The position numbers and the translations under genes are program-made. Shown piece by piece: positions 12,658 through 54,012 of a DNA stretch of 64,000 bases (positions within the stretch are counted from its first letter, which is position 1; each line of letters starts with the position of its first letter). The stretch comes from Zanthoxylum bungeanum. Taxonomy: Eukaryota > Streptophyta > Magnoliopsida > Sapindales > Rutaceae. The stretch covers positions 186,001 through 250,000 of the forward strand of contig SKCR01051205.1 of NCBI GenBank assembly GCA_019454045.1. Reading direction: 5' to 3'. Under the pieces are notes generated by a model that saw only the letters and a list, made by a program, of their open reading frames with translations, was not told the DNA's origin and did not search any database.

Positions 12658-12671
12658 CAAATTTTAGCTTT

Positions 12672-12949: not shown

Positions 12950-13207
12950 CATGTCGACAGTATAGTAATTGAGGCGCGTCGTAATGCAGAGAGCTTGCGC
13001 GTCGCGACGTGTGAACGGTGAATTTCTATTTTTGCCCTTTTGTCCATTTTTTTATCGTTTTAGCCCCAAGTTGATTCCATTGAGTCCCAAAATTTTATTT
13101 ATCTGCAAAATACACAAAAACACATCAAAAAATTCATAAAACCCGAGAAAATAAATAAAATATTAGGTCAAATGGGCGGTAAATAGTGACTTATTTTCCG
13201 CCCATCA

Positions 13208-23465: not shown

Positions 23466-24059
23466 TTATCTTTGAAATAATAGGGTCAATTGTGGTTCAT
23501 AGGCTAAGATTTGGTCAATTAGATCCGGAGCAGTTCTGGCAGTAAAGAGGAGTTCTTTCATAGGTTTTGTCACGAACCCATTTCTCCGGGCATCATCAAG
23601 AAAAACACAAAGAAAATCATAAAATCCTTCAATGTTGTACAGTCCAAGTGGTTTCTGGTGTATGTTCAAGTTTGCCCAAGATAATACTGTAAAAAATTCC
23701 TCCAATGTACCCAAGCCACCTAGCAAAGCAATAAAAGCATCAGCACGGTTAATCATTTCTACCAGTCGTTCAGACATACCTGTCACAATTAGCTCTTCTC
23801 TGTTTGATGGTCCAATAAGATTTGCCTCCGCCAATGGTTTTGGGATGATTCCCAAAACGTGACTGCCTCCCTCATGTACAGCTTTTAAAACGATCCCCAT
23901 AAGTCCAAGATTGCCTCTGCCATATACTAAGTGCATATTCCTTGCAGCTAAGACTCGACCCATTTCCTATGTTGCCTCTACGCATTGTGTTTTAACACCA
24001 ACACTAGTACCGCAAAACACACAGATGTTTTCAACTCGTCTTCTTGAAGTGGCTTCCAT
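23466..24059 (-). pseudogene. Retrotransposon-borne LOG homologue (cytokinin nucleoside 5'-monophosphate phosphoribohydrolase), copy 2
   Basis: The minus-strand frame starts with an ATG at 24059. Codon 31 is a TAG stop (23967-23969) where E-plus has a glutamine codon, and the frame then stays open to 23466. It shows ICVFCG at the N-terminus, then GLMGIV, HVLGIIPK, SERLVEM, the signature region LGGLGTLEE and a C-terminal KELLFTARTAPDLI. LOG enzymes cleave the ribose-phosphate from cytokinin nucleotides to release the free base in the cytosol. The signature PGGxGTxxE has its proline replaced by leucine here, and the upstream YGGG loop reads YGRG. There are no introns, whereas plant LOG genes have several, so the copy came from a spliced RNA. 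It lies in the same place as the E-plus copy, between the extra ORF and the 3' LTR. Confidence 0.85.
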
Positions 24060-24307
24060 GTTTTACTCTGGATGTCTTCAAAAGTGCAATGATGAGTTGA
24101 ATTTATAATACCTGAAAAGGGTGAGTAAAATAATAGCACTAGTACCTGCCAAATGACAATTATTAGTTAAACAGTAAAAAAATCGTGATAGTCAAAAGGT
24201 TTGATCCTGTCGGAGAAAATAAAAGAAAACAACAAAACAGATTACAATTATTAGGAAAAGACAAAGAGATATAATATGTACAAGAAAAGTAGCGGCTTGA
24301 TTGACGT

Positions 24308-24637
24308 CTATGCGTCAGGGACAAGCTTCCCATCCATTTTCTTATAAATTGGTAAACATGGTCTTTTTGAGTCAGATTCCCAAACTTAACTGTTGTCTTT
24401 CTTTTTGGAATTGTGTATTAATTTACGAATGGCTAATGAACATATCCCTGGGATGCGTCTCAAGAGTCGAAGATATATTATCTACAACTCCTTACTCTAG
24501 CCATCCCTAATGAATGTAATTATGTTTCGTAGAATTATCAGACACCATTCCTAAAGAACGATAACTATATTGCAATCCAGGTGCACATTTGTAACAAACA
24601 CCCATTTGCTTAGCTCTACTTTAGTTGCATAGGTGCT
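24308..24637 (-). pseudogene. Extra ORF of E-minus, C-terminal part
   Basis: The minus-strand text matches the second half of the 186-residue extra ORF of E-plus and ends at the same TAG (24308-24310). The cysteine cluster region is present but altered. The gene is cut at 24637 by the E-plus LTR, and its other half lies at 37167-37378. Confidence 0.75.
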
Positions 24638-25261
24638 TGATGAGCGGAAAATATATCAATATTTACCGCCCCTTTTACTTAATATTTTGTTTAGTTTCTC
24701 GGGTTTGATGAACGTTTTGATATGTTTTATTTTATTTTGCAGATAAAATAATATCGGGACTCAATGAAATCATTTAGGACGAAATGTGGATCAAATAAGG
24801 GCAATTATTGGACTTGATATATTAATTTTGGAGATTGGAAACTTGAAAGGGCGTTTTTGACGAAGTGCAGTTTTGGAAATTCCAGTTTTGCGCATCTGTC
24901 GTATTTTGGGCATAACTGTTTACTCAGATATCGGATTGAGCTGATTCAAGTTCCAGATTAAAGAAGACTCAAAGATCTACAACTTTGAAAGAGAAAATAT
25001 TTTCAAATTCTGATGATTTCATGACCGAAATTGATGAACCATCCAGAAGTGTGTGGAGTGTAATTATTAAAAGTCATTATCAATCATTTTCAAAGCAAAA
25101 TATTAATTAATAAATAATTAATAAAAATTAAATCAAATCACCACCAACAAGATAAGAAATTAGTGGAGCAATTATGGATTTGGTGGAGTAATTAGTGGAG
25201 AAATTAATAATGGATTTGGTGGAGAAATTGATTGATGATTTGATGGTGGCAAAATTTTGCC

Positions 25262-25269
25262 TATAAATA
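25262..25269 (+). promoter_or_regulatory. TATA box in the E-plus 5' LTR
   Basis: TATAAATA within GCCTATAAATACC. It is conserved in the 3' LTR (35687-35694) and in the E-minus LTRs, so it is the probable promoter for element RNA. Confidence 0.7.
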
Positions 25270-25600
25270 CCAAGCCATTTCATTTGTAAAATTCATACTT
25301 TCTTCTTTGAAATCCTTAATGAAAAAATAAAAAGATTGTATCTAGTTTGTTTATTTTTAGTTTTCAGTAATTAATTTTCAATTTCGCACTTTCTTTTCTT
25401 TACTTTTCAGTTTTACTTTCCGTAATTTACTTTTACGCATAACACTTTCCTTTCTTTACTTTTTCAGTTTTTATTTTTCAACCATGAGGAGGTAACTTCC
25501 CTCTGCCGAGGTGAAAGGTAATTCTTTTACTGTTACTATCTTAGATTAATCTCCCTTAGACACAACATATTCACTATTCTAAAATTTGACTTAAAAAGGA

Positions 25601-25823
25601 ATACCGCTATATTGGTCGGTGGGCTATTTAATTTAAACTGTTAAACCTGACTAAGCAAGGATACCGCCAGATTGGTCGGTTGGTAATTTAATTTTGGTTC
25701 CGCCTTTATGGCTGGTTATTTCTTTATCGCCTACATGGCAGGTTCATGGACAAATTTTACCGCCTTTATGGCTGGTCGGACTTAACTTGACTTAATCAGG
25801 GTACCGCCTATATGGTCGGTTGG
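25601..25823 (+). repeat. Six hairpin-forming repeats in the E-plus LTR
   Basis: Copies lie near 25601, 25661, 25698, 25727, 25758 and 25802. The core is ACCGCC, a 4-5 base loop, then TGGTCGGT or GGCTGGT. The arms pair as ACCG with CGGT, or GCC with GGC in the variants. The same array recurs in the 3' LTR (about 36040-36262) and, on the other strand, in E-minus and the 11477 LTR. Confidence 0.75.
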
Positions 25824-26743
25824 TTTTAATCTCACAAGTGATTATGTTATACTAAGGGAGATATCTAAGTTAGTAATTAGTAAAAGTAATTCCTTTTATC
25901 TTGGCAGTTTATTTTCATTTACTTCCCGCTTTTACTTTCTCGCAGTTACTTTTTAGCATTTTTATTTTATGTCTTTTAAGTTTTCATTAGCCATAGCTAT
26001 GTATTGTAACTAAGTTAGTATCTAGGGTTGTGATGAATTTCAATATAACCGGTTTATAAGGGGTTAGATTATAGGTTGGGTAATTTAAAATTTATTTATT
26101 GAGTCTTAATCTTAATGCTTTTTATTAACTGGCCATTAATAAAATTGATTAGGTAAACTTAAAATGAACTAGACATAGGGATTTTAAGTTTAAGACCTTA
26201 GACTAAATAACCCACGATCTTCCTTGAGGATAGATAACCCTTTTAATAGATTTCCTTACAGGATAGGAATATACCTGTCGGGCGGAGGTAGCCATAATTG
26301 GAACTTAATCTTAATGAATCTAGGTAATTTGGTTGACATAGACATATGGTTCAATTGGATTATACTAGGTATTTGAAATTGACCATCGGAAGAGGCTTTT
26401 ACATAAATTAGTGTCCAGGTTAATAAATCAATATATTACCCAACTTTAAGATAACCACTTCATCTTCTAAATAATATTGGAATTAATCACAACCCTGGAT
26501 AGTTTTTATAAATTTGGATTTTTCTCAACCTACTTTTAAGCAATTTTATTTACTTGTTTTAAATTTAGAATCATCGTCATTTCAAATCAATCAATCAAAC
26601 AACCTGTTAGATACTGGTAATCAGTTGGCCCCATAAATTAATAACAAAAAGGTTTTAAGTCCTCGTGGGATCGATACTTTTTATACTACTTGAACGATAC
26701 GTGCGCTTGCGTTATACGTGTGTGATTACGCCGGTCAAGTTTT

Positions 26744-26761
26744 TGGCGCCGTTGCCGGGGA
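26744..26761 (+). other. Primer-binding site for tRNA-Asp
   Basis: TGGCGCCGTTGCCGGGGA is the complement of the 3' end of plant tRNA-Asp as I know it, including CCA. It starts six bases after the LTR. This primer is typical of Athila and Tat elements. Confidence 0.85.
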
Positions 26762-26867
26762 CTTATTTATCTTTTACTATTAGTTTAGGGGTTAGATACG
26801 TTACTTGTATCTAATTTCTTTTTACTTATTGTTTTTGTTTTCTTGTGTTTCAGGTTCTCAGACTTTA

Positions 26868-28640
26868 ATGAGACGAGCCAGAAGCTTTGAAATCCACCGC
26901 TTGACCCTGAGATTGAAAGAACCATCAGACAGTTGAGAAGGGAAAGGCGAGAAGGCCAAGAAGCAATTGTTAACATGGAACCTGAACCTTTGGAGGTTGC
27001 ACCACCAATTCCCATTCGAGACAGAACCATTCCGTGGTAGATGGCCTCATTTCCTGTATTGTACTTCCTCCCTTACCAGCAAATGCGAGTGATATCAAAA
27101 CTTGCATTCAGATGATTCAGCATTCAGTTCAGTTTGGGGGGAATGCAACTGAAGATCCTAATGCCCACATCAGCAACTTCCTGGAAGTTTGCGGCACTTT
27201 CAATTACAACCGAGCATCAGAAGAAGCAATGAGACTGCAAGTTTTTCCATACTTTTTGAAAGACAGAGCAAAGGCCTGGCTACATTCACTACCAGCTGGT
27301 TCCATCACAACATGGAACACTCTAGCCACCAAATTCCTTGCAAAGTACTTTCCACCACCCAGAACTGCAAAATTGAGGAATGACATCACATCCTTTGTGC
27401 AGCAAGATTCAGAATCTCTGTACGAAGCTTGGGAAAGATACAAAGATCTGCTCCGGAAATGTCCTCACCATGAGATTCCAAAATGGCTTCAAGTCCAAAC
27501 TTTCTATAATGGACTTTCTGGATTGATGAGAACCACTATTGATGCTGCTGCTGGAGGAGCTTTGATGTCAAAAGGAGAAGATCAAGCCTGGGACCTAATC
27601 GAAGAGATGGCCAATAACAATTCCTTGTGGCCAACAGAAAGGAGCTTGATTCAAAGAATTGCAGGAATTTATGAAGTTGGAGCCAACACAACACAGTTAG
27701 TGCCAAACTGGACCAGATATGCAAATTCATGGAGACTCTCAACACTCAAAGCAATATTGGAGCAACAAGTTCAACATATGGAGGAGCACCAGAGCCAACT
27801 CAACCTGAAGAAACGGTGAATTATGTCAACAATTTCAACAGACAGGGAAACAATCCATATTCCAACACCTACAACCCAGGGTGGAGGAATCATCCCAATT
27901 TTTCATGGAGCAACAATTCTGGACAAAGGAACAATCCACCACCAGGATTTCAGCAACAGAACAATCCACCACCTGTATTCCAGCAACATAACAAAGGCCA
28001 GGAGCATGAAAAAGAACCAGTAATGGCAGAAGTGCTGGCTCAGTTAAAAAAATACGATGCTATGATTCAGAACCAATCAGCTTCTATCAAAGCACTGGAA
28101 AATCAGATTGGACAACTGGCCAATGCTCAGAGTTACAGACCACCAGGAAATCTTCCCAGCAACACAGAACCGAATCCAAGGAACCGAGGGAAGGAGCAAT
28201 GTCAAGCCATCACCTTGAAAAGTGGTACTGAAATCAACAAAGATGTTGGAATCAAGGCAACCATTGAAGATGTTCCAAAAGAAGCAGAGCAACAGATGGA
28301 GGAAAAAGAAGCAAAGGAAAAAGAACAGATTACTCCACCTCCACCTTTTCCTCAGCGTCTTCAGAAAAACAAACTGGACAAGCAGTTTGCTCGATTCCTG
28401 GAAGTATTCAAAAAGCTGCACATCAACATCCCATTTGCAGAAGCCTTGGAACAAATGCCCAGCTATGTCAAATTCATGAAAGATATTCTTTCACGAAAAC
28501 GAAGATTGGGAGATTACGAGACAGTAGCATTGACGGAAGAATGCAGTGCCATCATTCAGAGGAAACTACCCCAGAAGTTGAAAGATCCTGGTTTCATTTC
28601 ACAGTCCCGTGCACCATTGGAGAACATTACATCGGTAAGG
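26868..28640 (+). pseudogene. gag of E-plus, with frameshifts
   Basis: It starts near an ATG at 26868. The first part reads PPLDPEIERTIRQLRRER in one frame and a TAG stops it at about 27038. The capsid region follows with EVCGTFNYNR, RAKAWLHSLPAGSITTWN, FLAKYFPP, QTFYNGLSGLMRTTIDAAAGG and IEEMANNN, all usual for Athila-type Gag. Near 27690 the frame changes, and it continues with a glutamine/asparagine/proline-rich linker (NPGWRNHPNFSW) and a charged C-terminal part. It changes frame again near 28590, just before the protease. Gag and pol appear to have been one long reading frame, as in related elements. Confidence 0.85.
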
Positions 28641-30406
28641 CTTTATGTGATTTAGGTGCTAGTGTTAACTTGATGCCTTTTTCTATTTACAGGAAACTAC
28701 AGATTGGAGAAGCAATGCCTACCTCTGTCTCTTTGCAACTTGCCGATCGGACGCTCGCATTTCCAAGAGGAGTGGTTGAAGATGTGTTGGTGAAAGTTGA
28801 CAAACTCATTCTCCCAGCTGATTTCATTATCCTTGACATGGAAGAAGACAAAGATGTTCCTATCATTCTTGGGAGACCATTCTTGGCTACAGGGAGAACT
28901 GTGATTGACGTACAAAAAGGAGAACTAACCATGAAAGTTCAGGACCAAGAAGTTACTTTCAATGTTTTCAAAGCCATGAAATTCCCGAGCGATGAAAAGG
29001 AAGAAGAATGTTTCAGAATTGATGTTGTTGATAGTATCATTCAAGATACTGATACAATTCCCACAGACAAACTTGAAGCTTGCATCACCAACATGTCTGA
29101 CAGTGAGCTTGATGCTGAAATTATGGAATGTATCAACTATCTTGACAAGCCGTTTCGTTTCAAAGTGACACAACCAATTGAAAGTTTGGAACTTCCAAAG
29201 ACAGACCGGATCAAACCCTCGATTGAAGAACCACCGCAGCTGGAGCTGAAGTTACTCCCGAGCCATCTCAGGTATGCATTTCTTGGAAACTCTTCTGAAT
29301 TACCTGTTATAATTTCTTCGTCGCTAACATTGGAACAGGAAGAAAAGTTGCTGAGAGTATTGCGAGAGCACAAGAAAGCCATTGGTTGGACTATAGCAGA
29401 CATTCGAGGCATTAGTCCATCATTTTGCATGCACAAAATCTTGATGAACGATGAGTACAAACCCACTGTGGAGCATCAACGGAGACTCAATCCAATCATG
29501 AAGGAAGTCGTGAAGAAAGAAATCATCAAATGGTTGGATGCTGGCATCATTTATCCCATTTCAGACAGCAGTTGGGTGAGTCCAATGCAATGTGTGCCGA
29601 AGAAAGGAGGAATTACTGTGATCACCAATGAAAAGAACGAGTTAATTCCGACAAGAACGGTGACTGGATGGAGAGTATGCATGGACTACCGTAAGCTGAA
29701 CAAAGCCACCAGAAAGGACCATTTTCCGCTGCCATTCATTGACCAGATGTTAGACAGATTGGCGGGACATGAGTTCTATTGCTTTTTGGATGGATATTCA
29801 GGATACAATCAGATTTCCATTGCACCAGAGGATCAGGAGAAAACCACATTTACATGTCCTTATGGTACTTTTGCTTTCCGCAGGATGCCATTTGGACTAT
29901 GTAATGCCCCTGCCACATTTCAGCGTTGCATGATGGCCATCTTCTCAGATATGTTGGAGCAGAGTATGGAGGTTTTCATGGATGACTTTTCTGTATTTGG
30001 AGATTCATTTGATCATTGTTTGCAAAATCTTGAACATGTATTACAAAGGTGTGAAGACACGAACTTGGTACTCAACTGGGAGAAATGCCACTTTATGGTA
30101 CAGGAAGGCATTGTTCTTGGACACCGGATCTCACAAAAGGGAATCGAGGTAGACAAAGCAAAGATCGAGACAATTGAAAAACTACCTCCTCCAACATCTG
30201 TCAAAGGCATTCGGAGTTTTCTTGGACATGCAGGTTTTTACATGAGATTTATCAAAGACTTTTCTAAAATTGCAAAACCTCTTTGCAACCTTCTGGAAAA
30301 GGATGTGCCTTTCAACTTCACCAAAGAATGCCAGGAAGCCTTCGAGATCTTGAAACAGAAGCTGGTTTCTACCCCCATCATTGTAACACCCTTCCATTTG
30401 AAGTAA
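28541..30406 (+). pseudogene. pol of E-plus, part 1: protease and reverse transcriptase
   Basis: This 621-residue open frame begins in the protease, with active-site motif CDLGASVNLM near residue 37 and IILGRPFLAT near residue 110. The reverse transcriptase follows with SSWVSPMQCVPKKGG, WRVCMDYRKLN, the catalytic box VFMDDFSVFGD near residue 480, and [20 protein letters not shown]. It copies element RNA into DNA inside the particle. The frame ends at a stop after VTPFH, where a short length change separates it from the RNase H part. Coding sequence on both sides of that break is well preserved. Confidence 0.9.
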
Positions 30407-32133
30407 TGTGTGATGCTAGTGATTTTGTTGTAGGTGCAGTTTTGGGACAACGCAAAGCAAAGATTTTCCACACCATTTACTACTCCAGCAGAACTCTAAA
30501 TGAAGCTCAACTCAACTACACAACCACTGAAAAGGAGTTGCTTGCAGTTGTGTTCGCTTTTGACAAATTTCGTTCTTATCTGTTGGGTCCCAAGGTGGTA
30601 GTCTACACAGATCATTCAGCAATCAAATATCTGATCGCGAAGAAAGATGCCAAACCCAGATTGATCCGTTGGATACTTCTTCTGCAAGAATTTGACGTGG
30701 AGATTCGAGACAGGAAAGGAACAGAGAACCAGGTGGCAGATCACTTATCGAGGATCGAGAATGGAGAAACAGCTGGCAAAGAACTGTCAATCAAAGAAAC
30801 TTTTCCAGATGAACAGCTGTTTGCCATGAAACAACAAGATACCCCTTGGTATGCTGACTATGTCAACTACATTGTGTCAGGAAAATGGCCGTTGGAATGG
30901 ACAACTCAACAACGGAAGAAATTCTTCAAAGAAGTCAAGCACTATATCTGGGATGAGCCGTACCTGTTCAAACGGTGTGCTGATCAATTATTGAGACGGT
31001 GTGTTCCACAGGAGGAGGTCAACAGTGTTTTGCAGCACTGTCATTCATCACCATATGGCGGACACTTCAGCGGAAACAAAACTGCAGCAAAAGTCCTTCA
31101 ATCAGGTTTGTTCTGGCCTACACTTTTTAAAGATGCTTATCTTTTTGCTTTTCAATGTGACAGGTGCCAGAGAATGGGGAATATTTCGAGAAGAAACGAA
31201 GAACCATTGCAAAACATTCTGGAAGTTGAGATATTTGATGTATGGGGTATTGATTTCATGGGACCCTTTGTTCCATCATTTGGAAACCTGTACATCTTGG
31301 TTGCTGTAGATTACGTCTCCAAATGGATTGAAGCAATTGCACTGCCATCCAATGATTCAAAAGTGGTGATCAAATTCCTGAAAAAGAACATTTTCACTCG
31401 GTTTGGAACACCTCGAGCAATCATCAGCGATGGTGGCTCTCATTTCTGCAACAAATACTTTGATGCACTTCTATCCAAATACGGAGTTACTCACAAGGTT
31501 GCCACAGCCTACCATCCACAGTCAAATGGACAGGTTGAAGTTTCAAACAGAGAAATCAAAAGAATCTTGGAAAGAACCGTTGGATCAACAAGGAGGGACT
31601 GGTCTACAAAACTGGACGATGCATTATGGGCCTACCGTACAGCTTACAAGACACCCATTGGTATGTCACCATATCGATTGGTGTTTGGGAAAGCATGCCA
31701 TCTGCCAGTTGAGCTTGAACACAAGGCGTACTGGGCACTGAAGAAGTTGAATTTTGATCCACAAGCTGCAGGAGAGAAAAGACTTCACCAACTCAATGAA
31801 TTGGAGGAATTTCGCCTACAGGCTTATGAGAATGCCAGACTGTACAAAGAAAAGACCAAGAGATGGCATGACCGAAAAATAGTGCACAGACAGTTGGAAC
31901 CAAGGCAACAGGTGTTGTTGTACAACTCGAGGTTGAAACTTTTCCCTGGAAAGTTGAAATCAAGGTGGTCAGGTCCATTTGTGATCACTCAGGTTTTACC
32001 ACATGGAGCTGTTGAGTTACTGGATCCCAATACCAACAACACATTCAAAGTTAACAGTCAGCGGGTTAAGCATTATTGGGGAGAACCGTTGGAGCGTCAA
32101 AAAGAAACTGTCACACTTTCAGATCCAGCCTAA
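30407..32133 (+). CDS. pol of E-plus, part 2: RNase H and integrase
   Basis: The open frame reads through RNase H ([16 protein letters not shown], then [10 protein letters not shown]), a spacer, and the integrase HHCC zinc finger ([10 protein letters not shown] and CDRCQRMG near residues 250-292 counted from 30283). The catalytic core has its three acidic residues in [15 protein letters not shown] and [18 protein letters not shown]-type C-terminal module ([19 protein letters not shown]) follows, and the frame ends at TAA, 32131-32133. These domains remove the RNA strand and insert the DNA copy into the chromosome. The upstream frame is separated by a break near 30390, so no full polyprotein can be made from this copy. 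Confidence 0.9.
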
Positions 32134-32250
32134 ACGTTCGAAAAGTCACGTCTAGCTGACGACTTTAAACTTAGCGCTCGCAGGGAGGCAACCCATGCAA
32201 TTTGTGTATATATTGTGATTTTGTGTGATTTAATTTTGTGTGTTTAGTTT

Positions 32251-32811
32251 TTGCAGATTAAGATGGAAGAAGCTCTCGTAAATCTTCACAAGCAATTTCC
32301 TTCTCTCCCTCAAAAATCTCTGATGAAAGTTTACAAAGCTCGCTTGGAACGGATGAGACTATTGATGAACAAAGGTATTCCTACTGATATTTGTTGGGTA
32401 ATCGAAGCACGAATTCGTTTAGCAGGTGAGTATTCTGAGTCTTGTAATTCTTATTTACCTGGATTTGGAAGAAGCACCTATGCAAAGAAACGTAGAGCTA
32501 AGCAAATGGGTGTTTGTTTCAAATGTGCACGTTGGAATTGTAATACTCGTTGTCGTTCTTTAGGAATGGTGTCTGATAATCGAGAAGACAAAATTAAATT
32601 CATTAGGGATGGCTTGAGTAAGGAGTCTTTAGATGATCTATCTTCGACTCTTGAGACGCATCCCAGTGGATATGTTCATATAGCCATTCGCCAATTACAT
32701 ACACAATTTCTAAAAGAAAGACAACAGTTAAGTCTTGGGAATCTGACTCAAAAAGACCCTGTTTGCCAATTTATAAGAAAATTGGATGGGAAGCTTGTCC
32801 CTGACGCATAG
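32251..32811 (+). CDS. Extra ORF between pol and LOG, unknown function, 186 residues
   Basis: It is an intact frame from ATG to TAG, 117 bases after pol. I do not recognise the family. The N-terminal third looks helical and basic (KVYKARLERMRLLMNKG). A cysteine cluster, CFKCARWNCNTRC (C-x2-C-x4-C-x3-C), follows a basic run YAKKRRAK and could bind zinc or nucleic acid. The C-terminal part is soluble-looking, with no membrane segment or signal peptide. Athila elements often have an envelope-like ORF in this position, but nothing here looks like an envelope. E-minus carries the same ORF in the same place, which supports a real protein. The preceding GCGCTCGCAGGGAGGCAACC block is a common sequence after pol in this element branch. 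Confidence 0.6.
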   Translation: MQIKMEEALVNLHKQFPSLPQKSLMKVYKARLERMRLLMNKGIPTDICWVIEARIRLAGEYSESCNSYLPGFGRSTYAKKRRAKQMGVCFKCARWNCNTRCRSLGMVSDNREDKIKFIRDGLSKESLDDLSSTLETHPSGYVHIAIRQLHTQFLKERQQLSLGNLTQKDPVCQFIRKLDGKLVPDA

Positions 32812-33075
32812 ATGTCAATCAAGCCGTTACTTTTCTTGTAATATTATATCTCTTTGTCTTTTTCTAATAATTCTGATTTGTTTTGTTGTTTTCTTTTATT
32901 TTCTCCGACAGGATCCAGATTTTTTTACTATCACGATTTATTTTACTATTTTGATACTAATCGTCCTCTGGAAGATACTTGTGCTATTTTTACTCACCCT
33001 TTTCAGGTACTATAAATTCAACTCGTCAATGCACTTTTGAAGGCATCCTGATTTGAGAAAGAAATACATAAAAAC
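32812..33075 (+). other. Spacer between the extra ORF and LOG
   Basis: A T-rich stretch containing TTTTCTCCGACAG and later ACTCACCCTTTTCAG, both of which look like 3' splice sites. E-minus conserves both phrases on its minus strand near 24120-24230. It could serve for splicing LOG onto an upstream leader, but no transcript evidence is available. Confidence 0.4.
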
Positions 33076-33635
33076 ATGGAAGCCACTTCAAGAAGACGAG
33101 TTGAAAACATTTGTGTGTTTTGCGGTAGTAGTGTTGGTACTAAGCCACAATACATAGAAGCAGCACAGGAATTGGGTCGAGTCTTAGCTACAAGGAATAT
33201 GCACTTAATATATGGCGGGGAAATCTTGGACTAATGGGGATCGTTTCAAAGGCCGTTCAGGAAGGAGGCAGTCATGTCTTGGGAATCATCCCAAAACCCT
33301 TGGCAGAGGCAAATCTTATTGGATCATCAAACGGAGAGGAACTGATCGTGCCAGGTATGTCTGAACGACTGGTAGAAATGATTAACCGTGCTGATGCTTT
33401 TATCGCTTTGCCAGGTGGCTTGGGTACATTGGAGGAAATATTTATAGTATTATCTTGGGCGAACCTGAACATACACCAGAAACCGCTTGGACTGCTCAAC
33501 GTTGATGGATTTTATGATTTTCTTTGTGTGTTTCTTGATGATGCTCGGAGAAATGGGTTCGTGTCAAAACCTTTGAAAGAACTCCTCTTTACTGCCAGAA
33601 CTGCTCCGGATCTAATACCAACTCATAGCCTATGA
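33076..33635 (+). pseudogene. Retrotransposon-borne LOG homologue (cytokinin nucleoside 5'-monophosphate phosphoribohydrolase), copy 1
   Basis: The frame begins MEATSRRRVENICVFCGSS, the usual LOG opening. A one-base length change in the G run at 33215-33220 shifts the frame in the YGGG loop, and the correct frame resumes and runs to 33635. It keeps LGLMGIV, SHVLGIIPK, the SER arginine region and the intact signature PGGLGTLEE at 33411-33437, then QKPLGLLNVDGFYDFL. The last residues differ from copy 2 because of another small length change near 33617. Plant LOG enzymes of about 200-220 residues release free-base cytokinin. There are no introns. It lies between the extra ORF and the 3' LTR. The protein is clearly diverged from typical plant LOGs in the IPK-to-signature part, so substrate and activity are uncertain. 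Confidence 0.88.
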
Positions 33636-35062
33636 ACCTCAAGTTGACCCTATCCTTTCAAAGATAAATTGGTCCGAGGACGATCGTGGTAAGAGGCGTC
33701 GGATTAATCTAGATCTTAACCTTTAATTTCCTGTAGATTTCAGCTAACCAGGTACGACCTTCTTAAACTCTTCTTTTCTACTGTTTAAGACATTGGGGAC
33801 AATGTCTCATTTAGGTTTGGGGGGGGAATAGTTGATTAGTACCTTGTTTTTAGTTTGTGTGTTGTTTTTATTTTTAGTCCAAAATTTTTCGAAAAATACA
33901 AAAAAAAATTGAAAATTTTTAAAAATTACAAAAAAATTTGTGTTTTTGTGTTTTTATTTTGACTAAAAAGTGAAATTGGTAAGAGATAGCTGAGTAAGGA
34001 GTTTCCACTCCTGAGACGTATTTCAAACCTATTTCGAAACAAGTTAATTTTTGTTTATTTCCTTTTGAATTATTTAATTTGTAGATTCTCCATAAAACTG
34101 ACTAAAATGGATCTTCATATGCTTAGTTGGCAGGTATTATCAACATGCATAGTAACATACGGACATGAGCTGTAACTGACAGGATTGTATATATATTCAG
34201 TGCTATAGTTTAATTGGAGGAAGCATCTCAAAAAGTGATGGAGTAAAAAAAAAAAAAAAAAAAAATAAAGCATCTAAGATCCGGGTTATTAAGTCTGTAA
34301 GGGTGTTTTAACACTAGTGCCCTAAAGCCAACTGGTTTGGGAGTCACTGGCCCAAAGCTCGCTACATGGATCAAGGATGTTGCAAAAATATTTATATCTA
34401 ATGTCTGGGTAATTAAGTCCGTAGGGGTGTCTTAACACCTGGTGCCCTAAAGCCAACTGGTTTGGGAGCCACCGACCCAAAGCTCGCTACATAGACAGAA
34501 GATATTGTATATAAATAAAAAATAGAGAAAAAAGAAAGAAAAATCAAAAAATCAGAAAAAAAAAAAATTTACTCCATTACTATAAAAAGGTGTGAAATCT
34601 AATAGAACCTTAGGACAAAAATATTTCTCTTATCAATTGCACTTGTGACTGTTGTGGGCAAAAATGAGTTGATTAATATTTTGCTGGCTGTGTATATGGA
34701 GAATGGTAAATATAATCGGAGAATTTACTTATTCGGTAGTTTAGAAAGAAACAAAACAACTAGTAACTTGGAGTAGAAGTTTCACTTGATTAGTCATTAA
34801 CTTCTTTATTCTCTTTTCTCTTGTCTTTTTGCTTTTGTGTGCATTAGTTTTAACTAACTTTTTACTTTTGTAAAACGTTTGTGGGTATCGTTGCTGTAAA
34901 CCCTCACGAGACTACAACTCGTCCACTAGGGACACCTAGGGGTTTAAAGGCTTGTTGCATACGCTAAATGCAACCGTGATCCCTACGAAAGTGGCTTAGT
35001 TTAATTTTAATTTTATTTTGTTGTTTTGCTCGAGGACTAGCAAAATGTTAGGTTTGGGGGTG
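33636..35062 (+). other. 3' non-coding region and polypurine tracts of E-plus
   Basis: It contains ATTGGGGACAATGTCTCAT then AGGTTTGGGGGGGGAA (33816-33830), a 22-A run at 34244-34265, a 124-bp tandem duplication (34275-34520) and the phrase TTAGGTTTGGGGGTG directly before the 3' LTR at 35063. That last tract is the one correctly placed to prime second-strand DNA synthesis. Confidence 0.7.
34275..34520 (+). repeat. 124-bp tandem duplication in the E-plus 3' region
   Basis: Two copies share GCCCTAAAGCCAACTGG, TTTGGGAG and CCCAAAGCTCGCTACAT, offset by 124 bases, with several substitutions between them. Confidence 0.85.
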
Positions 35063-37166
35063 TGATGAGCGGAAAATATATCAATATTTACCGCCCCTTT
35101 TACTTAATATTTTGTTTAGTTTCTCGGGTTTGATGAACGTTTTGATATGTTTTATTTTATTTTGCAGATAAAATATATCGGGACTCAATGAAATCATTTA
35201 GGACGAAATGTGGATCAAATAAGGGCAATTATTGGACTTGATATATTAATTTTGGAGATTGGAAACTTGAAAGGGCGTTTTTGACGAAGTGCAGTTTTGG
35301 AAATTCCAGTTTTGCGCATCTGTCGTATTTTGGGCATAACTGTTTACTCAGATATCGGATTGAGCTGATTCAAGTTCCAGATTAAAGAAGACTCAAAGAT
35401 CTACAACTTTGAAAGAGAACATATTTTCAAATTCTGATGATTTCATGACCGAAATTGATGAACCATCCAGAAGTGTGTGGAGTGTAATTATTAAAAGTCA
35501 TTATCAATCATTTTCAAAGCAAAATATTAATTAATAAATAATTAATAAAAATTATCAAATCACCACCACCAACAAGATAAGAAATTAGTGGAGCAATTAT
35601 GGATTTGGTGGAGTAATTAGTGGAGAAATTAATAATGGATTTGGTGGAGAAATTGATTGATGATTTGATGGTGGCAAAATTTTGCCTATAAATACCAAGC
35701 CATTTCATTTGTAAAATATATACTTTCTTTTCTTCTTTGAAATCCTTAATGAAAAAATAAAAAGATTGTATCTAGTTTGTTTATTTTTAGTTTTCAGTAA
35801 TTAATTTTCAATTTCGCACTTTCTTTTCTTTACTTTTCAGTTTTACTTTCCGTAATTTACTTTTACGCATAACACTTTCCTTTCTTTACTTTTTCAGTTT
35901 TTATTTTTCAACCATGAGGAGGTAACTTCCCTCTGCCGAGGTGAAAGGTAATTCTTTTACTGTTACTATCTTAGATTAATCTCCCTTAGACACAACATAT
36001 TCACTATTCTAAAATTTGACTTAAAAAGGAATACCGCTATATTGGTCGGTGGGCTATTTAATTTAAACTGTTAAACCTGACTAAGCAAGGATACCGCCAG
36101 ATTGGTCGGTTGGTAATTTAATTTTGGTTCCGCCTTTATGGCTGGTTATTTCTTTATCGCCTACATGGCAGGTTCATGGACAAATTTTACCGCCTTTATG
36201 GCTGGTCGGACTTAACTTGACTTAATCAGGGTACCGCCTATATGGTCGGTTGGTTTTAATCTCACAAGTGATTATGTTATACTAAGGGAGATATCTAAGT
36301 TAGTAATTAGTAAAAGTAATTCCTTTTATCTTGGCAGTTTATTTTCATTTACTTTCCCGCTTTTACTTTCTCGCAGTTACTTTTTAGCATTTTTATTTTA
36401 TGTCTTTTAAGTTTTCATTAGCCATAGCTATGTATTGTAACTAAGTTAGTATCTAGGGTTGTGATGAATTTCAATATAACCGGTTTATAAGGGGTTAGAT
36501 TATAGGTTGGGTAATTTAAAGATTTATTTATTGAGTCTTAATCTTAATGCTTTTTATTAACTGGCCATTAATAAAATTGATTAGGTAAACTTAAAATGAA
36601 CTAGACATAGGGATTTTAAGTTTAAGACCTTAGACTCAATAACCCACGATCTTCCTTGAGGATAGATAACCCTTTTAATAGATTTCCTTACAGGATAGGA
36701 ATATACCTGTCGGGCGGGGGTAGCCATAATTGGAACTTAATCTTAATGAATCTAGGTAATTTGGTTGACATAGACATATGGTTCAATTGGATTATACTAG
36801 GTATTTGAAATTGACCATCGGAAGAGGCTTTTACATAAATTAGTGTTCCAGGTTAATAAATCAATATTACCCAACTTTAAGATAACCACTTCATCTTCTA
36901 AATAATATTGGAATTAATCACAACCCTGGATAGTTTTTATAAATTTGGATTTTTCTCAACCTACTTTTAAGCAATTTTATGTACTTGTTTTAAATTTAGA
37001 ATCATCGTCATTTCAAATCAATCAATCAAACAACCTGTTAGATACTGGTAATCAGTTGGCCCCATAAATTAATAACAAAAAGGTTTTAAGTCCTCGTGGG
37101 ATCGATACTTTTTATACTACTTGAACGATACGTGCGCTTGCGTTATACGTGTGTGATTACGCCTCA
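35063..37166 (+). mobile_element. 3' LTR of E-plus
   Basis: About 2,104 bases, beginning TGATGAGCGG and ending ACGCCTCA, where the 5' LTR ends ACGCCGGTCA. All features of the 5' LTR recur: the TATA box (35687-35694), the pyrimidine-CAG units, the hairpin array and the end region. Confidence 0.9.
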
Positions 37167-37378
37167 GGTCTGCTCTTCCAATCCAGCAAATAAGATTAAC
37201 AGGAATCAATACTCACCTGCTAATCGGACCCGTGCTTCGATTACCCAACGAATGTCATTAGGAATATCATGGATCATCAGTAGTCTCTCCGTTCCAACCG
37301 AGCTTTGTAGACTTTCATCAGAGAGTTTTGAGGGAGAGAAGAATTGCTTGTGAAAGTTTTTGAGAATTTCTTTCTTCA
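37167..37378 (-). pseudogene. Extra ORF of E-minus, N-terminal part
   Basis: Reading from an ATG at 37378 gives a start like the E-plus ORF (FHKQF, then IRWVIEARVRLAGEY). The piece is cut at 37166 by the E-plus insertion and the frame is disturbed near 37206. The C-terminal half lies at 24308-24637. Confidence 0.7.
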
Positions 37379-37515
37379 TCCTGAAATGTCTTAATCTGCA
37401 AAAACTAACACACAAAATTAAATCACACTAAATCACAATATATACACAAATTGCATGGGTTTGCCTCCGCTAGCGCTAAGTTTAAAGTCGTCAGCTAGAC
37501 GTGGCTTCTCGAACG

Positions 37516-38109
37516 TTAGGCTGGATCTGAAAGTGTGACATTTTCTTTTTGTCGCTCAAATGATTCTCTCCAGTATTGCTTGACACGCTTGTTTTTAACC
37601 TTGAATGTTTTGTTAGTGTCAGGATCATGTATCTCAGCGGCTCTGTCTGGTAAAACCTTAGTTATCACAAATGGACCTGACCATCGTGATTTTGGCTTCC
37701 ATGGGAAGAATTTCACCCTTGATTTGTTTAACAGTACTTTATGCCCTGGTTCTAGTTGTATGCGTACTAACTTCTCATCATGTCTCTTCTTGGCCTTTTC
37801 TTTGTACAATTTGGCATTCTCAAAAGGTTGATTGTGAAATTCCTCCAATTCTTTAAGCTGGTGGAACTTTTTCTCTTCTGTTGCTTGTAGTGCAAGAATT
37901 GGCTTTTTCAGTGCAAAAGACGCTTTATCTTCAGGCTCCACAGGCAATTGACATATTTTAAGTTTGTCAATAGAACTTTGCATTGCATTGGAGTTCTGAA
38001 TGGTACTGTGTATCACATCAAGTCTGAAACATTCCTCCTTTTTTTCATCTTCTGGGAAATTCATGGCCTTGAAAACATTGAATGTTACTTCTTGGTCTTG
38101 TACCCTCAT
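37516..38109 (-). CDS. Protease end fused in frame to integrase C-terminus (pol core deleted)
   Basis: This 197-residue open frame begins with MRVQDQEVTFNVFKAMNF, which in E-plus follows the protease near 28930. About residue 50 it passes directly into LPVEPEDKASFALKK, equivalent to 31700 in E-plus near the integrase end, and finishes with GPFVITKVLP and the same terminal LSDPA. About 2.6 kb encoding reverse transcriptase, RNase H and the integrase catalytic core is missing, yet the frame is kept across the join. Whether the product does anything is unknown. The in-frame join may be chance or may mark a non-autonomous lineage that keeps one long Gag-derived protein. Confidence 0.8.
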   Translation of the reverse strand: MRVQDQEVTFNVFKAMNFPEDEKKEECFRLDVIHSTIQNSNAMQSSIDKLKICQLPVEPEDKASFALKKPILALQATEEKKFHQLKELEEFHNQPFENAKLYKEKAKKRHDEKLVRIQLEPGHKVLLNKSRVKFFPWKPKSRWSGPFVITKVLPDRAAEIHDPDTNKTFKVKNKRVKQYWRESFERQKENVTLSDPA

Positions 38110-38131
38110 GGTTAATTCTCATTTTTGTACA

Positions 38132-40059
38132 TCAATAATGGTTCGACATGTAGCCAAGAACGGTCTCCCCAATGATGATTGGCACGTCTGCGTCTTCCTC
38201 CATATCAAGGACAATAAAATCTGCTGGGAAAATGAATTTGTCAACCTTGACCAGCACATCCTCAACTACGCCTCTTGGAAATACGAGCGTTCTATCAGCA
38301 AGTTGTAGAGAGACTGAAGTTGGCATTGTTTCTCAATCTGCAGTTTCCTGAAAATAGAAAAAAGCATCAAGTTAACACTTGCACCTAAATCACATAAAGC
38401 CTTACCAAAGTTATGTTCTCCTATGCTGCATGGAATGGTGAAACTGCCAGGATCTTTCAACTTTGGGGGAAGCTTCGTTTGAATGATAGCACTGCATTCT
38501 TCTGATAATGCTGTTGTCTCGTAATCTCCCAATCTCCGTTTTAGTGAAAGAATGTCTTTCATGAATTTGACATAGCTGGGCATTTGTTCCAAGGTTTCTG
38601 CAAATGGAATGTTGATGTGCATCTTTTTGAACACCTCCAGAAAATGAGCAAACTTCTTGTCCAGTTTGTTTTTCTGAAGACGCCAAGGAAAATGTGGAGG
38701 TGGAGTGATATGTTCTTTTTCCTTTGCTTCTTTTTCGTCCATCTGTTGCTTTGTTTCTTTTGGAACTTCCTCAGTAATTGTTTTGGCTCCAACATCTTTG
38801 TTGATTTCAGTACCACTTTTTAACATGATGGCATGACACTGCTCCTTCCCTCGGTTCCTTGGATTGGGTTCTGTGTTGCTGGGAAGATTACCTGGCGGTC
38901 TGTAACTCTGAGCATTGGCCAGTTGTCCAATTTGATTCTCCAGTGATTTGATAGAAGCTGATTGGTTCTGAAACATAGCATCATACTATTTTAACTGAGC
39001 CAACACTTCTGCTATTCCTGGTTCATTTGCATGCTCATGGCCTTTGTTCTGTTGCTGGAATCCAGGCGGTGGATAGTTCTGCTGTTGGAATCCAGGTGGT
39101 GGATTGTTCTTTTGCCCTGAATTGTTGCCCCATGAAAAATTGGGATGATTCCTCCACCCTGGGTTGTAGGTGTTTGAATATGGATTGTTCCCATGTCTAT
39201 TGAAATTGTTGACATAATTCACCGTCTCTTCAAGTTGGTTCGGCTCTGGTGCTCATTCATATGGTGAACTTGTGGATCCAGTGGTAAGAGTCTCCATAAA
39301 TTTGCATATCTGATCCAGCTTGGCGTTGACTGCTGTATTGGCTCACTTTCATAAATTCCTGCAATTCTTTGGATCATGCTCTTTTCTAGTTGGCCAAAGG
39401 AATTATTGTTGTCCATTTCTTCAATTAGGTCTCAGGCTTGATCTTCTCCTTTTGCCATTAAAGCTCCTCCAGCAGCAGCATCGATTGTGGTTCTCATCAG
39501 TCCAGAAAGTCCATTATAGAAAGTTTGGACTTGAAGCCATTTTGGAATCTCATGGTGAGGACATTTCCGGAGCAAATCTTTGTACATTTCCCAAGCTTCG
39601 TAGAGAGTTTCCGAGTCTTGTTGCACAAAGGATGTGATGTCATTCCTCAGCTTTCCAGTTCTGGCTGGTGGAAAGTACTTTGCAAGAAATTTGGTGGCTA
39701 AAGTGTTCCAAGTTGTGATGGAACCTGCTGGTAGTGAATGTAGCCAAGCTTTAGCTCTTTCTTTCAAGGAGTATGGAAAAACACACAGTCTCATTGCTTC
39801 TTCAGCTCATCGGTTATAATTGAAAGTGCCGCAAACTTTCAGGAAGTTGATGATGTGGGTATTAGGATCTTCAGTTGCTTTCCCCCCAAACTGCACCGAC
39901 TGCTGAATCATATGAATGCATGTTTTGATGTCACACGCATTTGCTGGTAAAGGAGGAAGTACAATACAGAAAATGAAGCCGTCGACCACCAGAATGGTTC
40001 TGTCTCGAATGGGTATTAGTAGTGCAACTTCCAAAGGTTCAGGTTCGTCTCATGTAGTT
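38132..40059 (-). pseudogene. gag and protease of E-minus
   Basis: Minus-strand pieces match E-plus gag in order: EVALLIPIRDRT, VCGTFNYNR, AKAWLHSLPAGSITTWN, QTFYNGLSGLMRTTIDAAAGG, the NPGWRNHPNFSW linker and the protease motif CDLGASVNLM (38371-38400). It is broken by in-frame stops near 39805 and 39430, frame changes near 39356 and 38330, and others. These breaks differ from those in E-plus, so they arose separately. With a repaired history this element would have supplied Gag but no reverse transcriptase. Confidence 0.8.
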
Positions 40060-40180: not shown

Positions 40181-40186
40181 AAAACT

Positions 40187-41267
40187 TGACCGGTGCGTAA
40201 TCACACGATTATAACGCAAGCACACGTATCGTTCAAGTAGTATAAAAAGTATTGATCCCACGAGGACTTAAAACCTTTTATTATAAATTTATGAAGTTAA
40301 ATATTTACAAGTATCTAATGGATTGATTGTTTGATTGGGTGGTGACTTTAAAATTAAAACAAGTAAATAAAATTGCTGAAAGTAGATTGAGAAAATTCAA
40401 ATTTATAAAACTATCTAGGGTTGTGAATCCTTCCAATATCTTTTTAAAAAATGAAGTGGTTATTTTACATTTGTGTAATATATTGGTTTATTAACCTGGA
40501 ACACGAAATTATGTAAAAGCCCTTCCGATGGTCAAATACAAATACCCAGTATAACCCAATTAATCATATTCCTATGTTAACCAAGTTATCTGAATTTATT
40601 AAGATTAAGTTCCAATTATGGCTACCCCCGCCCGACAGGTATATTCCTTTCCTGTAAGGAAATCTATTAAAGGTGATCGTGGGCTATTAAGTCTAAGGTC
40701 TTAAACCTAAAATCATTTTTCCAAGTTCATTTTAAGTTTACCAATTCAATTTTATTAATGGCCAGTTAATAAAAAATATTATGATTAAGGCTCAATAAAT
40801 AAACCTTTATATTACCCAAACTGTAATTTAACCCCTTATAAACCGGTGATATTGGATTTCAACACAACCCCAGATAACTGGCTTAGTTACGACACATATT
40901 TACGGGTAGTAAAAACTTAAATAAAATAAAAGACATAAAGTAAAATACTGAAAATTAAATGCTGAAAAGTAAATGCTGAAAGTAAATTACTGAAAAGTAA
41001 ATGCTGAAAGTAAATTGCTGAAAAGTAAATGCTGAAAGTAAATTGCTGAAAAGTAAATGCTGAAAGTAAATTACTGAAAAGTAAATAAAGTAAAAGTACA
41101 ATAAAAGAAAATGCTGAGCTAAAAGGATCCACTTTTATTACTTCTATTTTAGATATCTCACTTAATATAATATATTAATTTTGCATGATAATTACCAACC
41201 AGCCATATAAGCGGTATCCAGATTAAGTCAAATTAATAATTAATTACCAACCGACCAATCAGGCGGT
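40187..41267 (-). mobile_element. 5' LTR of E-minus, inner part
   Basis: The inner end reads ACGCACCGGTCA on the minus strand. It matches the 3' LTR at 21037 onward, including the pyrimidine-CAG array (40945-41095). It is interrupted at the sequence GCGGT (41263-41267) by the solo LTR that follows. Confidence 0.8.
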
Positions 41268-44200
41268 TGACCGGCGTAAACACACATGTATAACGCAAGT
41301 GCACGTATCGTTCAAGTAGTATAAAAATATCGATCCCACAAGGACTTAATTCCTACTGTTGTTATTAATTGTTGAATCTATTTATTTACATATATCTAAT
41401 TATAGGAAGAAGTGAATGATTGCTTGATTGATTTGGTTGATTGTAGATTTGCTAAATAATAAATAAATAAAAAGACAAAAGAAAATACTAAGGAAAATAA
41501 AAAAAAACACAAAGATCTAGGGTTGTGGATCATTCTAATATCTTTTAAAAGATGAAGTGATTATTTTATGTTTGTGTAATAAATCAGTTTACTAACCTGG
41601 AACACGAAATTATATAAAAGCCTATGTCGATGGTCAGACGCAAATACCCAGTTTAACCCAATTGAACCATATGTCTATGTCAACCAAACTATCTGGATTC
41701 ATTAAGTTTAAGTTCCAATTATGGCTACCCCCGCCCGACAGGTACATGTCTATCCTGTAAGGAAATCTATTAAAGGATTATCTATCCTCAAGGAAGATCG
41801 TGGGCTATTAAGTCTAAGGCTGAAACCTAAAATCCCTATGTCTAGTTCATTTTAGATTTGCCACATCAATCTTATTGGTGATCAGACAACAAGAAGCATT
41901 AAGCGTAAGACTTAATAAGTAAACCTTTAAATTACCCAAACTATAAAATAACCCATTATAAAACGGTGATATTAGAATTCATCACAACCCTGGATAACTA
42001 ACTTAGTTACGACACATAACTAGGGCTAGTAAAAACTTAAATAAAATAAAAGACATAAAGTAAAATGCTGAAAAGTAAAATGTTGAAAAGTAAAATGCTG
42101 AAAAGTAAAATGCTGAAAAGTAAATGACGGAAAGTAAATACTAAAAAGTAAATGCTGAAAGTAAATGCTGAAAGTAAATTGCTGAAAAGTAAATTGCTGA
42201 AAAGTAAATGCTGAAAGTAAATTGCTGAAAAGTAAATGCTGAAAGTAAATTGCTGAAAAGTAAATGCTGAAAGTAAATTACTGAAAAGTAAATAAAGTAA
42301 AAGTACAATAAAAGAAAATGCTGAGGTAAAAGGATCCACTTTTATTACTTCTATTTTAGATATCTCACTTAATATAATATATTAATTTTGCATGATAATT
42401 ACCAACCAGCCATATAAGCGGTATCCAAATTAAGTCAAATTAATAATTAATTACCAACCGACCAATCAGGCGGTTGACCGGCGTAAACACACATGTATAA
42501 CGCAAGTGCACGTATCGTTCAAGTAGTATAAAAATATCGATCCCACAAGGACTTAATTCCTACTGTTGTTATTAATTGTTGATCTATTTATTTACATATA
42601 TCTAATTATAGGAAGAAGTGAATGATTGCTTGATTGATTTGGTTGATTGTAGATTTGCTAAATAATAAATAAATAAAAAGACAAAAGAAAATACTAAGGA
42701 AAATAAAAAAAAACACAAAGATCTAGGGTTGTGGATCATTCTAATATCTTTTAAAAGATGAAGTGATTATTTTATGTTTGTGTAATAAATCAGTTTACTA
42801 ACCTGGAACACGAAATTATATAAAAGCCTATGTCGATGGTCAGACGCAAATACCCAGTTTAACCCAATTGAACCATATGTCTATGTCAACCAAACTATCT
42901 GGATTCATTAAGTTTAAGTTCCAATTATGGCTACCCCCGCCCGACAGGTACATGTCTATCCTGTAAGGAAATCTATTAAAGGATTATCTATCCTCAAGGA
43001 AGATCGTGGGCTATTAAGTCTAAGGCTGAAACCTAAAATCCCTATGTCTAGTTCATTTTAGATTTGCCACATCAATCTTATTGGTGATCAGACAACAAGA
43101 AGCATTAAGCGTAAGACTTAATAAGTAAACCTTTAAATTACCCAAACTATAAAATAACCCATTATAAAACGGTGATATTAGAATTCATCACAACCCTGGA
43201 TAACTAACTTAGTTACGACACATAACTAGGGCTAGTAAAAACTTAAATAAAATAAAAGACATAAAGTAAAATGCTGAAAAGTAAAATGTTGAAAAGTAAA
43301 ATGCTGAAAAGTAAAATGCTGAAAAGTAAATGACGGAAAGTAAATACTAAAAAGTAAATGCTGAAAGTAAATTGCTGAAAGTAAATTGCTGAAAAGTAAA
43401 TGCTGAAAGTAAATTGCTGAAAGTAAATAAAGTAAAAGTACAATAAAATAAAATGCTGAGGTAAAATGATCCACTTTTATTACTTCTATTTTAGATATCT
43501 CTCTTAATATAATATATTAACTTTGCATGATAATTACCAACCAGCCATATAGGCGGTATCCAGATTAAGTCAAATTAATAATTAATTACCAACCGACCAA
43601 TCAGGCGGTATCCAGTTTAGTCAGGTTAAAACCAATTTAAATAATTACCAACCGACCAATATGGCGGTATCCTCGTTAAGTCAGGTTTTAACTAGTTTAT
43701 ATATTATAATTAAGGGAGATTAATCTAAATATTAGTAATAAAAGTTTTACATTTTACCCAGCAAAGGGGAGTTACCTCCTCATTACTGAAAAGTAAAAAA
43801 AAAAAAACTGAAAATTAAAGAAAGAAAAGTATTGTACGTAAAAGTAAATTGTGGAAAGTAAAAACTGAAAAGTAAAGAAAAGAAAGTGCGAAAGCGGAAA
43901 TTAATTACTAAAAGCTATAAATAAACAAACAAGATACAATTTTCTTAGTATTCTTAAGGAATTCCTTAGAAGAAAGTATGAATTTTACAAATGAAATGGC
44001 TTGGTATTTATAGGCAAAATTTTGCCTCAATCAAATCATTCAAAAAATCCATTATTAATTGCTCCACTAATTGCTTATCATGTTTGGTGGTGATTTGATA
44101 TTTTTATTATTTATTTATTTATTTATTTTTTGCTTTGAAAATGATTGAAAATGACTTTAATAATTACACACAACACACTTCTGGATGGTTCATCAATTTC

Positions 44201-53998: not shown

Positions 53999-54011
53999 GG
54001 CTCTGATACCA
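53999..54011 (-). other. Initiator tRNA-Met primer-binding site of element Z
   Basis: The minus strand reads TGGTATCAGAGCC, a perfect match to the common plant copia primer site, beside the LTR end at 54013. Confidence 0.85.
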
Positions 54012-54012
54012 T

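Follow-up and report, generated by a model that had tools for sequence, protein, structure and literature searches.

Athila-like retrotransposon copies of Zanthoxylum bungeanum carrying a LOG-derived sequence and a flexivirus-type reading frame: a possible accessory module

The window described here is a stretch of 64,000 nucleotides from Zanthoxylum bungeanum (contig SKCR01051205.1, positions 186,001 to 250,000). It contains an Athila-like LTR retrotransposon (element A) inserted into an older, minus-strand copy of the same element type (element B). In both copies a reading frame of the nucleic-acid-binding protein (NABP) type and a LOG-derived sequence occur in the same order, and LOG takes the same position within each element. 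The features of the two elements, in positions of the window, are the following.

24638-37166, plus strand: element A, Athila-like LTR retrotransposon (LTR self-match and Pfam domains)
24638-26737, plus strand: 5' LTR of A, beginning TGATGAG (blastn self-match to 35063-37163)
26744-26761, plus strand: primer binding site, TGGCGCCGTTGCCGGGGA, read from the sequence just 3' of the 5' LTR
27034-27819, plus strand: gag (PF03732) of A (Pfam and ORF listing)
28541-30406, plus strand: pol part of A with reverse transcriptase (PF00078) (Pfam and ORF listing)
30283-32133, plus strand: pol part of A with RNase H and integrase (PF17917, PF17921, PF00665) (Pfam and ORF listing)
32235-32257, plus strand: putative splice signal of acceptor type, immediately ahead of the NABP start codon (by eye; motif also in B)
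32263-32811, plus strand: NABP-type ORF, 182 aa, open in A (ORF frame 32251-32811; ATG placed by relatives)
32890-33008, plus strand: two acceptor-like signals between NABP and LOG, at 32911 and 33006 (equivalents in B at 24207 and 24112)
33076-33726, plus strand: LOG-derived sequence of A, frame broken twice, its end reading ..GKRRRINLDLNL stop
35050-35062, plus strand: polypurine tract ahead of the 3' LTR of A (by eye)
35063-37166, plus strand: 3' LTR of A
21037-23077, minus strand: 3' LTR of B (self-comparison)
23420-24059 (approximate), minus strand: LOG-derived sequence of B, broken
24290-24637, minus strand: NABP remnant of B, 3' part (self-comparison)
about 37170-37380, minus strand: NABP remnant of B, 5' part, separated from the 3' part by element A
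37516-40046, minus strand: remainder of B, integrase end and gag/protease (ORF listing and self-comparison)

In a blastn self-comparison the LTR blocks of A (24638-26732 and 35063-37163) are 98.96% identical, and with the ends set at 24638-26737 and 35063-37166 the pair shows 6 mismatches in 2093 aligned columns plus 18 gap columns. Substitution rates in plants are 0.7-1.3e-8 per site and year, from which the LTR mismatches date the insertion of A to roughly 0.1-0.2 million years ago. The target-site duplication is approximate, GGTGCT preceding 24638 and GGTCT following 37166. The primer binding site at 26744 is presumably that of tRNA-Asp, as in Athila, and the layout is of the Athila type: gag, reverse transcriptase, RNase H and integrase follow one another and about 2.9 kb separate the last from the 3' LTR. 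Copy A is probably non-autonomous, because the LOG copies are broken and gag-pol changes frame three times in the ORF listing.

The nesting is evident from the self-comparison, in which A's 31695-32472 matches 37954-37174 and its 32472-34066 matches 24638-23075; A thus matches both its flanks and therefore jumped into the NABP-type ORF of B. A stretch corresponding to A's reverse transcriptase is missing from B. The initial annotation had placed LOG within the boundaries of the element, and it lies inside in both copies seen, so that a LOG outside the element is ruled out by two internal copies. That a host LOG gene came to lie between element pieces by chance has a next to negligible probability: the two copies share one internal position, one element is nested in the other, and the LOG sequences of this type stand apart from the host LOGs sampled (see below).

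Further repeats accompany these elements. The 5' side of B (40186-45245) is a pile of LTR-like pieces, within which a near-perfect direct duplication occurs at a spacing of 1.2 kb (41376.. and 42582..). Tandem arrays of 14/28 bp of the AAAGTAAATGCTGA type occupy B's LTRs (21764-21953, 40937-41111, 42057-42318 and 43263-43453) and vary in length among the LTR pieces. Positions 11471-13402 hold a third LTR-like remnant of this family, which is diverged and still includes a little of the 3' end of the internal region. Another repeat family is represented by dispersed copies in direct and inverted orientation, 81-96% identical (46069-48067 and 54011-56899); in addition, a 253 bp tandem duplication (97% identical) was found at 7468-7978 and two overlapping minus-strand ORFs, retrotransposon gag-like by eye, at 145-821.

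The LOG-derived sequence of A is in sense orientation between integrase and 3' LTR, inside both LTRs, and neither A nor B has an intron-sized gap in LOG. This confirms, now in two element copies, the initial annotation of an intronless LOG-type sequence at this place of an Athila-like element. Its reading of 33076-33635 as a single coding stretch has to be modified: the frame starts at 33076 (ICVFCGSS) and breaks near 33215, a second stretch (33234-33620) contains PGGLGTLEE and breaks near 33615-33620, and the homology continues in a third frame (..SEDDRGKRRRINLDLNL) to the stop at 33724-33726. These frame changes are small and indistinguishable from assembly errors. From ATG to stop the sequence measures 651 bases, the size expected from 217-aa relatives; neither copy has an intact LOG frame in this assembly, and uninterrupted relatives are present in the protein database.

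Membership in the LOG family, as opposed to a generic Rossmann fold, is borne out by several matches. PF03641 is found with E=2.3e-35 in A (piece 33234-33632) and 1e-33 in B, together with the PGGxGTxxE pattern, and the best PDB match of A's LOG is Arabidopsis LOG3 (2a33, At2g37210; E=3.1e-38), which matches B's LOG at 1.1e-43. All six of the LOG-type sequences that were scanned scored above the TIGR00730 cut-off. NF058542, the equivalog model for LOG, also matched each of them, in every case below its cut-off, in a scan confined to these six.

Comparison of the two copies shows purifying selection on LOG. Over 207 codons (seven were skipped for gaps and one for a stop), changes affect 26.5 of the 144.2 synonymous and 30.5 of the 476.8 nonsynonymous sites, giving dS 0.211, dN 0.067 and an omega of 0.32; a Fisher test on the counts, truncated to whole numbers, gave p=8e-5. 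This value is near that of gag, for which omega is 0.24 in each of two stretches. LOG was therefore constrained while the element lineage was active.

A protein search with B's LOG piece returned 528 proteins among 629 candidates, and the best 120 of the 528 were used. P0217 was set apart, and the remaining 119 matches supplied 91 rows of 190-255 aa for the tree and the pocket counts and 83 rows of at least 205 aa (termed full-length) for the tail counts. A row is called element-type when it matches B's LOG piece, its element status being deduced from clade, copy number and literature. The tree comprised 122 rows: the 91 relatives, the two window pieces, 27 host rows (24 LOG7-type proteins, P0217 and Arabidopsis LOG3 and LOG8) and two bacterial LOGs. 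Among the matches listed, the top LOG relative is 87% and the top NABP relative 92% identical.

The initial annotation had suggested comparing host and element LOGs in a tree. There, the 93 element-type rows (the 91 and the two window pieces) all fall on one side of a branch with support 100/97, apart from the host LOGs sampled, a split that is partly built in, as the element-type rows are the best matches to the window LOG. The 27 host rows occupy another branch (99/98), the host sample consisting of the best matches to one LOG7-like protein plus Arabidopsis LOG3/LOG8. The split survives removal of the last 20 residues from the database rows (SH-aLRT 95 and 97), and in an AU test the grouping of element LOGs with LOG3/LOG7 apart from LOG8 is compatible with the data (p=0.206). 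With the host side narrowly sampled, the capture of LOG looks single and old, and passage through a spliced mRNA is plausible given the lack of introns. Searched against viral contigs, the LOG alignment gave short matches of 25-55% identity at 17 loci.

Between pol and LOG, element A has the NABP-type ORF, which exceeds the Pfam gathering thresholds of Carla_C4 (1e-5; 25.8 bits versus 20.9) and Viral_NABP (2.1e-5; 25.0 bits versus 23), one of the two matches spanning residues 43-124. In an alignment of 25 members (the window ORF and 24 relatives), Carla_C4 was matched by all 25 and Viral_NABP by 24. A match from composition alone was ruled out, as none of six local-composition shuffles matched anything. 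The search for relatives gave 423 at E<=1e-3 among 490 candidates. Among the best 120 of these, PF01623 is present in all 120, a basic run followed by C-x2-C-x4-C-x3-C in 101, and a length of exactly 182 aa in 67; the named matches listed include Xanthoceras, Acer, Populus, Rhamnella and Orobanche. A quick tree was built from 108 of the 120 rows (165-220 aa), of which 24 and 81 also entered alignments A1 and A3. In this tree Acer groups with Xanthoceras, the Populus rows fall together and Orobanche lies far out, as host descent would give. Between A and B, the omega of the NABP ORF is 0.51 in the 5' part and 1.26 in the 3' part, values that derive from few sites and from B as a decaying copy.

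By its Pfam matches and motif layout, the ORF is assigned to the cysteine-rich/nucleic-acid-binding protein family of flexiviruses. The structure model used for the fold search reached a mean pLDDT of 68.6 and a pTM of 0.32 (an earlier model had a pLDDT of 61.3) and has helices flanking the zinc motif on both sides. Against the viral library BFVD no match reached E<=0.001; the best had E=0.078, TM-scores were low, and the first two matches had probabilities of 0.66 and 0.87. Ranks 1 to 3 are silencing suppressors of fig latent virus 1, grapevine Kizil Sapak virus and Chrysanthemum virus B (a fragment), rank 4 is the NABP of red clover vein mosaic virus and rank 9 an NABP fragment of garlic common latent virus, so that flexivirus suppressors or NABPs account for five of the nine best-ranked matches. 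Of 34 stretches picked out in viral contigs by the NABP alignment, none was confirmed.

These data also bear on whether the ORF might belong to Athila-type elements themselves, its zinc knuckle beside a basic run having arisen by convergence, with LOG as the only foreign gene. Such convergence would fit the poor structure model, the non-significant fold E-values and the Pfam E-values, which are moderate even at their best among the 25 members (5.8e-8 and 1.1e-8) and centred on the basic-plus-cysteine stretch. It is considered improbable in view of the two matching Pfam families, one extending across residues 43-124, the shuffles without a match and the prevalence of flexivirus proteins among the first fold neighbours. 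Under the flexivirus assignment, the gene may have passed from virus to element or from element to virus.

Contigs of 2425 and of 4511 bases occur among the rows of both NABP and LOG and hint at linkage of the two genes in other plants. They are not counted as evidence, since such matches arise by chance as well: contigs of 905 and 1018 bases also coincide, and neither has room for the two genes.

The C-terminal end of the element LOGs has a tail of its own. LxLxL occurs within the last 15 residues in 57 of the 83 full-length element-type rows, forming the very C-terminal end in 54 of those 57, and is absent from the other 26; shuffled tails contained it in 6.8 rows on average and in at most 15. 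A basic run near the C-terminus was found in 73 of the 83 rows, and both features together in 52. Among host LOGs of the LOG7 type (119 proteins plus P0217), LxLxL was found in 0/120 and the basic run in 1/120, and Arabidopsis LOG3 lacks such a tail up to residue 214 of its 215. Copy A ends in RRRINLDLNL. LxLxL is presumably the EAR consensus, which binds TOPLESS corepressors, and the tail looks like a nuclear signal joined to an EAR motif. Recruitment of TOPLESS by EAR motifs is described in PMC9485867, where the accessible text does not give the motif letters. The motif is short, and its state requires at least 11 changes on the LOG tree.

That the two genes are passengers, transduced without benefit and spread with the element, would agree with the broken state of both LOG copies of the window and of B's NABP; transduced gene pieces are moreover known from plant elements (PMC7264820, in the part available). 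This explanation has a poor chance: it is at odds with the LOG dN/dS of 0.32 between copies, with the 423 NABP and 528 LOG-type matches and the constant length of 182 aa in 67 of the 120 NABP rows listed, and with a tail that the sampled host LOGs lack.

For the active site, residue numbering and the proposed catalytic pair Arg99/Glu122 follow PMC4979012. The pair is kept in 74 of 91 relatives and in the pieces of A and B, and Trp129 in 91/91; His97 remains in 33/91, Lys100 in 12/91 and Glu125 in 11/91, whereas in host rows the pair and each of these four residues are kept in 25/25. In the adenine/prenyl pocket of the window copies, Met96 and Trp129 are kept and His97, Lys100 and Glu125 are changed, to S, L and I in A, with T at the third position in B. 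A simple cytokinin role, as proposed by the initial annotation, is consequently doubtful in the window lineage: the catalytic Arg and Glu remain, and these three pocket residues do not.

The full set His97/Arg99/Lys100/Glu122/Glu125/Trp129 was found in 11 of the 91 relatives, namely ten rows of Acer/Xanthoceras type (seven so named) and P0190. The ten rows, which have no LxLxL, branch first (own support 96/76), the remaining 83 tree rows forming a clade; P0190 branches next and has LxLxL. From this branching order, it is suggested that a working LOG was captured, that the tail was then gained and that the pocket changed thereafter. The 26 full-length rows devoid of LxLxL and the 11 or more changes in its state speak against so simple an order. 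In its favour, the catalytic pair is lost in 14 full-length rows, eight of which keep LxLxL, and the tail can therefore outlive the active site. Five Citrus-type LOG rows (P0222, P0228, P0234, P0237 and P0240) all lack the catalytic Glu and the PGGxGTxEE pattern; the ending LDLTLRL is still present in P0222 and P0234 and missing from P0237, and the remaining two, P0228 and P0240, are shorter. These five are possible pseudo-enzymes with a kept tail.

An explanation close to the original proposal is that LOG is kept because, in cells transcribing the element, it releases active cytokinin and favours a meristem or germ-line fate; the tail would then be incidental. Retention of Arg99 and Glu122 in most rows and of Trp129 in all, the complete set of six positions in the basal group and P0190, and the TIGR00730 scores speak for such a hormone function. 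The erosion of Lys100, Glu125 and His97 relative to host rows, the retained tail of P0222 and P0234 in spite of their lost catalytic Glu and PGGxGTxEE, and the NF058542 scores below cut-off (in the scan of the six LOG-type sequences) argue against it, and it is held to be unlikely.

The reading preferred here is that the NABP homologue and a captured, remodelled LOG form a selected accessory module of two genes, situated between integrase and 3' LTR in an Athila-like lineage, for which the chances are judged about even. Its first gene is a homologue of the flexivirus-type cysteine-rich/nucleic-acid-binding protein, and its second would be a LOG enzyme captured long ago without introns and remodelled to bear a tail of nuclear-signal-like and EAR-like parts, the product of which is probably nuclear as judged from this tail.

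Both genes could be expressed from spliced subgenomic RNAs, an idea that may equally hold or fail. Besides the acceptor-like signals already listed, one precedes gag at 26853 and is also present in B. A scan of A's interior found 9 acceptor-like signals, compared with a mean of 3.2 and a maximum of 7 in 200 shuffles of 3-mer blocks, which ignore local T-richness; this apparent excess is treated as a lead only.

By analogy with the viral proteins, the first gene product might bind RNA or DNA in the nucleus and thereby dampen silencing of the element or switch host genes, a function credited with slightly less than an even chance. Viral cysteine-rich proteins (CRPs) combine a nuclear signal with a zinc finger and act as silencing suppressors, one of them being a transcription factor that causes hyperplasia (PMC12172455, in the part available). 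The second product may act in the nucleus by binding TOPLESS-type corepressors, which the tail motif tentatively suggests. In addition or instead, it might still cleave a nucleoside monophosphate, which would be a cytokinin precursor in the basal Acer/Xanthoceras-type rows; cleavage of cytokinin precursors in the window lineage itself appears rather doubtful from the pocket residues. Together, the two products would keep the host cell permissive, with silencing down and division or identity altered.

In its widest form, the preferred reading would make the module a host-control kit of eudicot retrotransposons, composed of a suppressor shared with plant RNA viruses and a hormone enzyme turned nuclear corepressor recruiter, in which binding by the tail and not catalysis is selected in most lineages, and which either has been passed down from a time before rosids and asterids diverged or has been transferred from one lineage to another. 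This extended form is somewhat unlikely. The second LOG copy, the NABP identity of the extra ORF and the C-terminal tail were absent from the initial annotation, and the virus-like ORF and the tail likely change the mechanism relative to the one it envisaged.

LOG cargo as such has precedents. Steinbauerova et al. (2011) reportedly found two Athila-like elements with LOGL4-like extra ORFs. The accessible text of PMC9289625 credits LOG cargo in Gypsy elements to a 2011 survey and itself reports LOG (YgdH) domains in Gypsy elements of Citrus and, without the authors' filter, of Populus trichocarpa, so that the view in the initial annotation that no such family had been described does not stand. 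These elements resemble those of the window in having a LOG-type domain as an extra part of a Ty3/Gypsy element. Rows named Citrus and Populus, 50-58% identical to B's LOG piece, fall inside the element-type LOG clade, and the Citrus and Populus elements of that report, as far as its accessible text describes them, therefore very likely belong to the same family. Its main text contains neither 'Viral_NABP' nor 'Carla', and tail and pocket are no topic in its accessible text. The same source, in the part available, describes Gypsy elements of orchids that have acquired an AlkB-type RNA demethylase as accessory enzyme, and flexiviruses, too, have enzymes of this kind; the orchid elements differ from the window elements in the enzyme, in being Ogre-like and in having been tested for activity in vitro.

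The closest relatives of the separate genes differ in comparable ways. The CRP/NABP proteins of carlaviruses, allexiviruses and mandariviruses share with the window ORF a basic stretch followed by a zinc-finger motif and the two Pfam families, and are its nearest-ranked fold neighbours in matches that are not significant singly; the window protein is retrotransposon-encoded and 182 aa long, whereas the five viral fold targets measure 77-125 aa (two are fragments). Plant LOG7/LOG3 phosphoribohydrolases have the fold family, PGGxGTxxE and mostly the catalytic Arg/Glu in common with the element LOGs, which by contrast have a changed pocket, an added basic and LxLxL tail and no intron. A literature search, mostly of papers outside subscription, found no account of an NABP-type ORF or of the LOG tail in such elements; in the accessible text of two papers on extra ORFs, the terms 'lonely guy', 'cytokinin' and 'carlavirus' (PMC11728184) and 'lonely' and 'EAR' (PMC11963269) do not occur. 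LOG cargo in Gypsy elements is already in print, and its combination with a virus-type suppressor ORF and a LOG tail is apparently undescribed.

The benefit that plant LTR elements draw from their 'extra' ORFs is an old question, and here two such ORFs have a recognisable identity, with relatives of both under the names of several eudicots among the matches listed. Suppression of silencing by the NABP-type protein, if it occurs, would amount to a counter-defence of a retroelement that is linked to RNA viruses, and if the LOG tail recruits corepressors, an enzyme would have been turned into a regulator inside a transposon. For the LOG cargo already known, this offers a possible mechanism. An element that holds both an NABP-type ORF and a long-retained, remodelled LOG copy suggests that some retrotransposons acquire proteins with which to manipulate their host.
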